From contig JANJUA010000188.1 in assembly GCA_024710825.1 (NCBI GenBank), forward strand, positions 1-14,408: 14,408 nucleotides of DNA, given 5' to 3'. A program made the translations under genes and the position numbers. Positions 1,414 to 14,323 of the stretch are shown piece by piece. Positions within the stretch are counted from its first letter, which is position 1, and each line of letters starts with the position of its first letter. This DNA is from Solirubrobacteraceae bacterium. GTDB lineage: Bacteria > Actinomycetota > Thermoleophilia > Solirubrobacterales > Solirubrobacteraceae. Under the pieces are notes generated by a model. It did no database searches. It was given only the letters and a program-made list of their open reading frames with translations, and was not told the origin of the DNA.

Positions 1414-3691
<2,278 letters not shown>

Positions 3692-11626: not shown

Positions 11627-12613
11627 ATGCGCGTCGTCGCCATCACCCGTCACGGCGAGCCCGACGTCCTGGCGGTGCGGCAGCGGCCCGATCCGGTGGC
11701 CGGGCCGGGTCAGGTGGTCGTCGAGGTGCGGGCCGCGGGCGTCAACTTCGCGGACCTCATGGCGCGCGTCGGGCTCTACGACCCGGCGCCGAAGCCGCCG
11801 GCGGTGGTGGGCTACGAGGTGGCCGGGACCATCGCCGCGGTGGGGGAGGGCGTCGCGCCGGAGCGCCTGGGCGAGCGGGTGATGGCGGGCACGCGCTTCG
11901 GCGGCTACGCGGAGCGCGTCGCCGTGCCCGCGTCCGACGCCCTCGCGCTGCCCGAGCGGCTGAGCTTCGCGCAGGGCGCGGCCATCCCGGTCAACTACGC
12001 TACCGCCTGGGCCGCGCTCGAGACCCTGAGGCCGGGCGAGCGGGTGCTGCTCCACGCGGCGGCGGGCGGCGTCGGCATCGCCGCGACGCAGCTCGCCCGC
12101 GCCCGCGGGGCGATCGTGCTCGGCTCGGCGTCGCCGGCCAAGCTCGCCGGCCTCGACCTCGACGAGCCGATCGACCGCACGCGGCGGGGCTGGTGGCGGT
12201 CCGTCGCACCGGTCGACGTCGTCCTCGACGCGATCGGCGGCCGCTCCTTCGCGCGCTCCTACCGCCTGCTGCGCCCCGGCGGCCGGCTGGTCGCGTTCGG
12301 CGCGAGCGCCGTCTACACCGGCGAGCGCCGCTCGCTGCTGCGCGCCGCCCCGCAGGCGCTGCCGATGCTGCGCGGCTTCGACCTCATCCGCCAGATGGAG
12401 GAGTCCAAGACCGTCGTCGGGCTCAACATGCTCGCCCTGTGGGACGACCGCGGGACGCTGGAGCCGTGGATCACGCCGCTGCGCGATCTGCTCGACGACG
12501 GCACGATCGCGCCCGTCGTCGCGGCCGAGGTCCCGTTCGCGCAGGCGCCGGACGCCCACCGCATGCTGGGCGAGCGGCGCAACGTCGGCAAGGTCGTACT
12601 GGTCCCGGGCTGA
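11627..12613 (+). CDS. Zinc-free medium-chain NADPH:quinone oxidoreductase, VAT1-like
   Basis: 328-residue medium-chain dehydrogenase/reductase. The N-terminal GroES-like domain has VRAAGVNFADLMARVGLY, GYEVAGTIAAVGEGV and ERVMAGTRFGGYAERVAVP. The nucleotide site is LLHAAAGGVGIAATQLARARG (141-161). The catalytic-zinc cysteines of alcohol dehydrogenases are missing, as in quinone oxidoreductases. The C-terminal half (LLRPGGRLVAFGAS, then FDLIRQMEESKTVVGLNMLALWDD, and RRNVGKVVLVPG at the end) recalls the VAT1 branch. The stretch between the Rossmann motif and VDVVLDAIGG (about 165-196) is short: it reads SASPAKLAGLDLDEPIDRTR and lacks roughly ten residues usually present there (the GAD-x-VINY region). 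The likely activity is NADPH-dependent reduction of quinones or enones; the substrate is unknown. A leuA leader promoter begins right at its stop. Confidence 0.92.
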   Translation: MRVVAITRHGEPDVLAVRQRPDPVAGPGQVVVEVRAAGVNFADLMARVGLYDPAPKPPAVVGYEVAGTIAAVGEGVAPERLGERVMAGTRFGGYAERVAVPASDALALPERLSFAQGAAIPVNYATAWAALETLRPGERVLLHAAAGGVGIAATQLARARGAIVLGSASPAKLAGLDLDEPIDRTRRGWWRSVAPVDVVLDAIGGRSFARSYRLLRPGGRLVAFGASAVYTGERRSLLRAAPQALPMLRGFDLIRQMEESKTVVGLNMLALWDDRGTLEPWITPLRDLLDDGTIAPVVAAEVPFAQAPDAHRMLGERRNVGKVVLVPG

Positions 12614-12619
12614 TATCGT
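12614..12619 (+). promoter_or_regulatory. -10 box of the leuA leader transcript
   Basis: TATCGT (TAnnnT) directly after the oxidoreductase stop codon and 10 nt before the leader-peptide ATG (12630). The transcript would start at or very near that ATG. Confidence 0.5.
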
Positions 12620-12629
12620 GGGTGGTCGG

Positions 12630-12677
12630 ATGCGGTCTCTCTCGGCCCTTTCGCTGCTTCTTCTCCTCCCCCGCTAG
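12630..12677 (+). CDS. Leucine-rich leader peptide of leuA (attenuator peptide)
   Basis: A 15-codon open frame, MRSLSALSLLLLLPR, ending TAG at 12675-12677. Seven of its 15 residues are leucine and five are consecutive (CTG CTT CTT CTC CTC, 12654-12668). It sits 77 nt upstream of leuA, the committed step of leucine synthesis. A run of the end-product amino acid before its biosynthetic gene is the classical mark of ribosome-mediated attenuation: shortage of charged tRNA-Leu stalls the ribosome and changes the downstream RNA fold. The start is supported by a TAnnnT box 10 nt upstream and the absence of a Shine-Dalgarno sequence, so it is probably read from a leaderless RNA. The stop codon lies in the hairpin at 12666-12683. 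Leucine attenuators have been proposed for actinobacterial leuA genes by comparative genomics. Confidence 0.88.
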   Translation: MRSLSALSLLLLLPR

Positions 12678-12683
12678 GGGGAG
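12666..12683 (+). promoter_or_regulatory. Hairpin overlapping the leader-peptide stop
   Basis: CTCCCCC (12666-12672), GCTA loop, GGGGGAG (12677-12683): a perfect 7-bp, GC-rich stem. It covers the last leucine codon, the Pro-Arg codons and the stop of the leader peptide. A ribosome paused on the leucine run or at the stop would block it. No U-tract follows, so it is not a simple intrinsic terminator. Confidence 0.7.
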
Positions 12684-12692
12684 CGATGCGTG

Positions 12693-12708
12693 GCGCCCGC
12701 ACTGGCGC
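12693..12708 (+). promoter_or_regulatory. Second leader hairpin before leuA
   Basis: GCGCC (12693-12697) pairs with GGCGC (12704-12708) around a 6-nt loop. It competes with an alternative TGCG/CGCA pairing (12687-12690 with 12698-12701). Such mutually exclusive folds are expected in an attenuator, but short GC-rich stems also arise by chance at this base composition. Confidence 0.35.
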
Positions 12709-12742
12709 GAACTCAACCGGAAGCAGACACCAGCCGAGAACC

Positions 12743-12748
12743 AAGGAG
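12743..12748 (+). promoter_or_regulatory. leuA ribosome binding site
   Basis: AAGGAG, 6 nt before ATG 12755; it decides the start of leuA. The hexamer AGGAGA (12744-12749) is the exact complement of TCTCCT (12662-12667) inside the leucine codon run of the leader peptide, so the two could pair and hide the site. Confidence 0.8.
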
Positions 12749-12754
12749 AGCCCG

Positions 12755-14306
<1,552 letters not shown>

Positions 14307-14323
<17 letters not shown>

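Follow-up and report, generated by a model that had tools for sequence, protein, structure and literature searches.

The stretch of DNA analysed here, 14,408 nt from a Solirubrobacteraceae bacterium (contig JANJUA010000188.1) and hereafter called the window, carries a 141-nt gap between the end of a quinone-reductase-like gene (12613) and the start of leuA (12755), whose nearest named relatives belong to Solirubrobacterales, Solirubrobacter and Conexibacter and place the window in the class Thermoleophilia. The gap holds a 15-codon ORF with seven Leu codons, five of them consecutive (codons 9–13), which an earlier note had put forward as the leader peptide of a leucine attenuator. The features of this region are listed below with the evidence for each.

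12614..12619, plus strand: −10 box TATCGT, 10 nt before the leader ATG (read in the sequence)
12630..12677, plus strand: leader ORF MRSLSALSLLLLLPR, stop codon TAG at 12675–12677 (read in the sequence; conserved leaders in relatives)
12630..12638, plus strand: 5′ strand of predicted helix P-1, AUGCGGUCU, first codons of the leader (folding, permutation tests, register scan)
12640..12646, plus strand: 5′ strand of a predicted extra helix (folding; relatives by eye)
12654..12661, plus strand: 5′ strand of predicted helix P0, CUGCUUCU, within the Leu codons (folding, permutation tests)
12666..12683, plus strand: P1 hairpin CUCCCCC-GCUA-GGGGGAG over the stop codon (98.5% of cells paired, 55 sequences)
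12693..12708, plus strand: P2 hairpin, 12693–12697 with 12704–12708 (94.5% of cells paired)
12719..12726, plus strand: purine segment segA, GGAAGCAG, predicted 3′ strand of P0 (folding, permutation tests)
12733..12739, plus strand: 3′ strand of the predicted extra helix (folding)
12743..12748, plus strand: leuA Shine-Dalgarno (SD) sequence AAGGAG (read in the sequence)
12755..14323, plus strand: leuA, 2-isopropylmalate synthase (homology)
12757..12765, plus strand: predicted 3′ strand of P-1, GGACCGCGU, from the last base of the leuA start codon to codon 4 (folding, permutation, register scan)

Reading 12630–12677 and its surroundings bore out the local layout that the earlier note had described, namely the Leu content of the ORF, the 77 nt between its stop and the leuA ATG, the −10 box 10 nt before its own ATG and a 7-bp GC hairpin across its stop (12666–12672 with 12677–12683, loop GCTA). 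The note had also remarked on the absence of a U-tract terminator, and a scan of 12560–12860 found no intrinsic terminator with a U-tract, the trait of a classical transcription attenuator; a terminator/antiterminator switch was rejected for this reason. The attenuator of the enterobacterial leu operon combines a Leu-rich leader peptide with a terminator and its U-tract; the window has the Leu-rich leader peptide in common with it and lacks the terminator and U-tract. The suggestion that the leader is translated from a leaderless RNA fits the promoter spacing in relatives: a TANNNT motif lies 7–11 nt before the start in 46 of 54 leaders, compared with 0–7 of 54 in ten control windows, a count somewhat inflated because the leader start was picked partly by the presence of such a box. 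From this spacing we infer a transcript whose 5′ end coincides with the leader ATG or adjoins it. An in-frame ATG at 12686 was rejected as the start of leuA because the corresponding extension contains a stop codon in the congeneric locus L007, which places the start at 12755. The quinone-reductase-like gene (11627–12613, plus strand) seems to keep its place in several relatives, where its ERRNVGKVVL-like end is visible ahead of the leader. Rfam 15 gave no matches at E up to 1 within 12600–12850; elsewhere in the window, a ZMP/ZTP riboswitch (RF01750, 63.4 bits) lies at 2442–2526 (plus strand), upstream of two genes, the first phosphoserine-aminotransferase-like and the second serA-like.

leuA-like matches were present in all 61 genomes searched. 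From these we drew 57 loci of the same order (30 including the window, and 27 fetched), leaving out G012, G020, G021 and G051 for their weak best leuA match. At 55 of the 57 loci a run of Leu codons lies directly 5′ of the C/G hairpin P1, followed in most of them by P2; the check proposed in the earlier note, which looks upstream of leuA in relatives for a conserved short Leu-rich ORF and covarying stems, was positive. This comparison supports the reading of the region as a leucine attenuator and indicates that the leader element is not a chance feature. The element is absent at L057, though the congeneric locus L058 carries it, and at L060 (genome G015), where the leuA-like gene is 59% identical. 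By eye, an apparent tRNA gene precedes the leuA-like gene of L060. With L054 truncated where its contig ends, the leader set comprises 54 sequences, with the pattern M...LDLRLLLLLP[L/P]RGE or ...LLLLLPR. Three consecutive Leu residues occur in 52 of them (the exceptions are L053 and L056), Leu occupies codon 10 in 51, codon 11 in 50 and codon 12 in 51, and in 31 the peptide closes with RG followed by no more than two further residues. At L029 only, a unit of about 37 nt (ggagacagatgcgg...gaatgat) stands in tandem twice between P2 and leuA.

RNAalifold predicted P1 only; P2 was added by hand and then counted. P2 has undergone a G-C to C-G swap in the genus of the window, and the covariation score of P1 and P2 lies above those of all 500 shuffles; of five covariation measures, two fail to surpass the shuffles. 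The leader stop falls inside P1 in 16 of 54 leaders, and because the hairpin persists in both types of leader end, P1 is retained as RNA. Outside the stems, the alignment strongly conserves an unpaired GCGU between P1 and P2 and an RAAC just after P2.

Folding of the window RNA by pseudoknot-free methods, which were used throughout, gave −66.1 kcal/mol compared with −56.5 kcal/mol for shuffled sequences (3 of 200 shuffles as good), and the predicted structure contained both P0 and P-1. The extra helix (12640–12646 with 12733–12739) is perfect in the window and, by eye, in L007, and is partial or lost in L005 and L006. Long-range pairing was evaluated by swapping partners among leaders, a permutation that ignores kinship and so overstates independence; one-per-genus, held-out and strict subsets were used to lessen this effect. 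Across the 54 leaders, P-1 reached z −7.8 and P0 z −7.5 (each 0/10000 permutations), and pairing of the Leu run with the SD (Leu x SD) z −2.9 (17/10000). Controls placed 20, 27 and 40 nt upstream gave z −1.6, −0.3 and +0.7, and one shifted by 2 nt, which covers nearly the same region, gave −8.0. With one sequence per genus (n = 39), the values for P-1, P0 and Leu x SD were −5.5 (0/10000), −6.8 and −3.1. The held-out set started from 18 loci, some sharing a genus with the first set; L064 was dropped as it has no leader start, and one locus was present twice (L067 = L151). Here the same three pairings gave −4.1, −2.9 and −0.8 (n = 17), −4.0 (3/10000), −2.9 and −0.5 after removal of the duplicate (n = 16), and −3.2 (15/10000), −1.7 (500/10000, marginal) and +0.3 in the strict subset (n = 9). 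Among actinomycetes, 30 leaders (from 31 loci) gave no significant P-1, 629/5000 permutations being as strong; because Leu x SD also fell short in these leaders (546/5000), the test may lack power in this set.

The pairing of P-1 keeps a fixed register. In 50 sequences outside the genus of the window, leader base i faces leuA position 3−i with 69% of cells paired, compared with 17–47% in alternative registers; leader bases 4–9 are 59% paired against 47% in shuffles (0/5000), base 4 with five pair types. Four congeners from the genus of the window have the register shifted by 9, with all cells paired. The preferred partner of the Leu run differs between families: it is segA in 32 sequences of family f1 (−18.5 versus −12.4 kcal/mol for the SD) and the SD in nine of family f3 (−17.9 versus −9.4 kcal/mol for segA). 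Overall the SD is preferred in 16 of 54 leaders, and P-1 is weaker in those 16 (−7.6 versus −12.0 kcal/mol, P 4e-4). With the caveat of shared ancestry, this pattern can be read as one of interchangeable locks. Masking of the SD by the Leu run found no support in the window, in which the run pairs with segA and its pairing probability with the SD is 0.0.

Leu codon choice in the leaders is unusual. CTT accounts for 115 of the 314 Leu codons that lie within 24 nt upstream of the hairpin and for 38 of 1213 in 30 leuA coding regions, being about twelve times commoner in the former; CTG, at 31 of 314 versus 588 of 1213, is five times rarer. The sequences counted are related, so that a P value on these counts is no independent evidence. 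When the Leu codons were redrawn from leuA usage, pairing with the SD weakened slightly (a median of 35% of draws were as strong; fewer than 5% at 13 of 55 loci, and 50% in the window), and thus SD pairing alone does not explain the bias, which could be explained by pairing or by slow decoding.

We then modelled the cost of opening the leuA start with ribosomes at different positions on the leader, with assumed ribosome footprint sizes. The mean cost for the 54 sequences was 9.95 kcal/mol for free RNA and 10.04 with a ribosome at the leader stop (below free in 31/54, P 0.36), 7.61 with a ribosome stalled at codon 11 (below free in 43/54), 6.88 when a second ribosome was added at the start (45/54) and 7.35 with an initiating ribosome alone (46/54). 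The window gave 11.6 free, 12.4 at the stop, 9.8 stalled, 6.9 stalled with a second ribosome and 5.5 with the initiating ribosome only; with codon 10 in the A-site the cost was 11.5, no drop from the free 11.6. For a single ribosome, the leuA start was on average open up to about codon 8–12 and closed towards the stop. In this model a stalled or queued ribosome would thus lower the opening cost and a ribosome at the stop would not. An initiating ribosome alone opens the start too, so the model does not single out stalling; what weighs most is the state of the leader AUG region, and the queue reading given below therefore stresses the second ribosome. Shuffling the first 12 nt of the leader reduced the cost to 8.3 kcal/mol (37/54). 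Shuffling the Leu run left it unlowered (9.7 versus 9.9, free higher in only 20/54), so that P0 does not act as the lock in this model. With a stalled ribosome the SD became more accessible in 39 of 55 sequences; in the window its accessibility was 0.52, no higher than the 0.71 of the free RNA.

A covariance model of the element matched 104 of 199 genomes of the class Thermoleophilia, an upper figure because the low-scoring matches include false ones: below about 32 bits they are mixed, the five inspected (L214, L215, L223, L225 and L227) not lying before leuA, and true matches occur as low as 24.8 bits (L181). Sixty matches, one per genome, reach E 1e-6 when counted by eye. In the phylum 15 of 198 genomes gave a candidate match, 12 of them inside the class and 3 outside. 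Within the order 49 genomes have a match, and among those listed at least four genomes of the family have none (G021, G015, G143 and G194), of which G021 has a distant leuA match only and G015 is the L060 case. Outside the order, 14 loci of the class carry the element before leuA, L220 not counted. In genome G020 (L164/L216, minus strand) it stands before leuS instead of leuA, with the leader VTPLLALALLLLPPRGE. A 15-codon ORF lies between this copy and leuS, its stop overlapping the leuS ATG, and the first leader codons pair best with the ATG of the short ORF (−15.6 kcal/mol; −11.1 at the leuS ATG). The search of leuS in other genomes, covering the 24 loci out of 27 whose position could be established (28 of 30 loci scanned, including that of G020), found the element in none. 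One leuS locus, L251, has a TTG ORF, LPVSLLLLRS, without a −10 box or P1. About 100–160 nt upstream of Rubrobacter-type leuA genes (L074, L076 and L077), a different conserved peptide is visible by eye, ...ILRL.RV..GRI.RPG(L/R) followed by the stop.

These results suggest that the element is probably a leucine-responsive leader of the translational type, and the RNA points to control of the leuA translation start rather than of transcription. The reading that we favour, with some reserve, is that of a translational attenuator which responds to leucine and is carried by a leaderless mRNA. Transcription would begin at or next to the leader ATG, judging by the −10 spacing, and ribosomes would initiate there. 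Once a ribosome has finished the Leu codons and left, P1 and P2 would fold, closed by P0 between the Leu codons and segA; the 5′ end of the leader would then pair with the leuA start region in P-1, and leuA would be poorly translated. When leucyl-tRNA is short, the ribosome would presumably stall on the Leu codons and disrupt P0 as well as P1; a second one, loaded upstream of it at the leader ATG, would keep P-1 open, allowing translation of leuA. Comparison among relatives supports the leader, P1, P2, P0 and P-1, and we put the chance that P-1 is the lock on the leuA start at about even. More tentatively, and with some doubt, the element may sense a queue: the initiation region of the leader would be an antisense counterpart of that of leuA, the two start codons pairing in one constant register (displaced by 9 nt in the genus of the window), and a stall at Leu 10–12 would let a second leaderless ribosome occupy the leader ATG and hold the antisense strand, so that traffic on the leader unlocks leuA. 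If true, the element would represent a type of translational attenuation that senses queues, seen to date in Thermoleophilia.

The plain logic reported for the LEU element of other Actinobacteria (PMC1262725), by which the Leu run (CUUCUCC) masks the leuA SD, stalling frees it and P-1 is secondary, agrees with the f3-family preference for the SD and with the Leu x SD signal among the 54 leaders. However, the run pairs with segA in the window and prefers it in the f1 family, and the Leu x SD signal is not significant in the held-out loci; we consider this logic unlikely to apply. Rho-dependent transcription attenuation, with leader translation governing the access of Rho to the leader–leuA RNA, would suit a leader without an intrinsic terminator, and Rho has been raised for cysteine leaders (PMC1262725), but P-1 targets the gene start, which Rho control does not need, and we judge this improbable.

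The conserved GCGU and RAAC are unexplained by pairing and would be accounted for by a protein-binding RNA element in which the leader peptide is secondary, as proposed for the LEU element (PMC1262725); both the run of Leu codons and a start codon downstream of a −10 box nevertheless persist, and we give this explanation a low probability. We hardly believe, finally, that the conserved leader ORF and fold do not sense leucine at all, acting for example as a constitutive damper of leuA. Our search of the literature on this clade found no earlier report and no functional data, including none on leucine changing leuA expression, which is compatible with such a damper, but Leu runs occur in 52 of 54 leaders and the one relocated copy found precedes leuS. 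The leucine-responsive translational attenuator remains our preferred reading. What looks new in it is the start-to-start helix P-1, supported by comparison and in silico folding, and the clade offers a version with individually testable helices, in which this helix predicts the behaviour of paired mutants. It would also extend the leaderless amino-acid leaders to a class of bacteria that has received little study; the ORFs of such leaders are very short, and annotation readily overlooks them.

The general kind, a Leu leader before leuA, is already known from PMC1262725 and, in leaderless form, from the available text of PMC8079986. The working of actinobacterial leuA leaders has lacked a clear explanation ever since leuA mutants of Streptomyces proved at odds with classical attenuation, for which reason protein binding was preferred for the LEU element (PMC1262725); the behaviour of these mutants also tells against the reading favoured here. 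That element (Seliverstov et al. 2005) comprises a Leu leader before actinobacterial leuA, a stem between the Leu codons and the SD, and a pseudoknot (PMC1262725). In Streptomyces lividans, the available text of PMC8079986 gives leuL1, MRFGLLLLSCRGEGL, as the leader of leuA, leaderless and with no terminator. The Thermoleophilia leaders resemble leuL1, as described there, in being Leu leaders that are probably leaderless and in lacking an intrinsic terminator; they differ from it in their hairpins and in a stop that lies inside P1 in 16 of 54. Thermoleophilia and actinomycete leaders both often end in R-G-E. A Corynebacterium leuA leader has four Leu codons, according to the accessible part of PMC4046766. 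The scheme proposed here has a parallel in the mycobacterial polycysteine ORFs (Canestrari et al. 2020), which the available portions of PMC9031893 and PMC13236596 describe as short and leaderless, with an amino-acid-dependent ribosome speed that controls a downstream gene; they differ in concerning cysteine and other genes, and those portions mention no start-to-start helix. The window shares with the LEU element the association with leuA, a short leader with a Leu run, the lack of a terminator and long-range base pairing between the Leu run and RNA close to where leuA begins (PMC1262725). It departs from it in that the Leu run pairs with a separate segment and not, as a base stem, with the SD, that the stop is spanned by a local hairpin, P1, and that P-1 joins the leader start to the gene start. 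Since it is of the shared kind and lacks the Leu:SD stem, we class it as a variant working like the LEU element rather than a strict member, on a comparison of that stem and not of the pseudoknot; in Thermoleophilia it corresponds to the LEU element, and its RNA is built differently.
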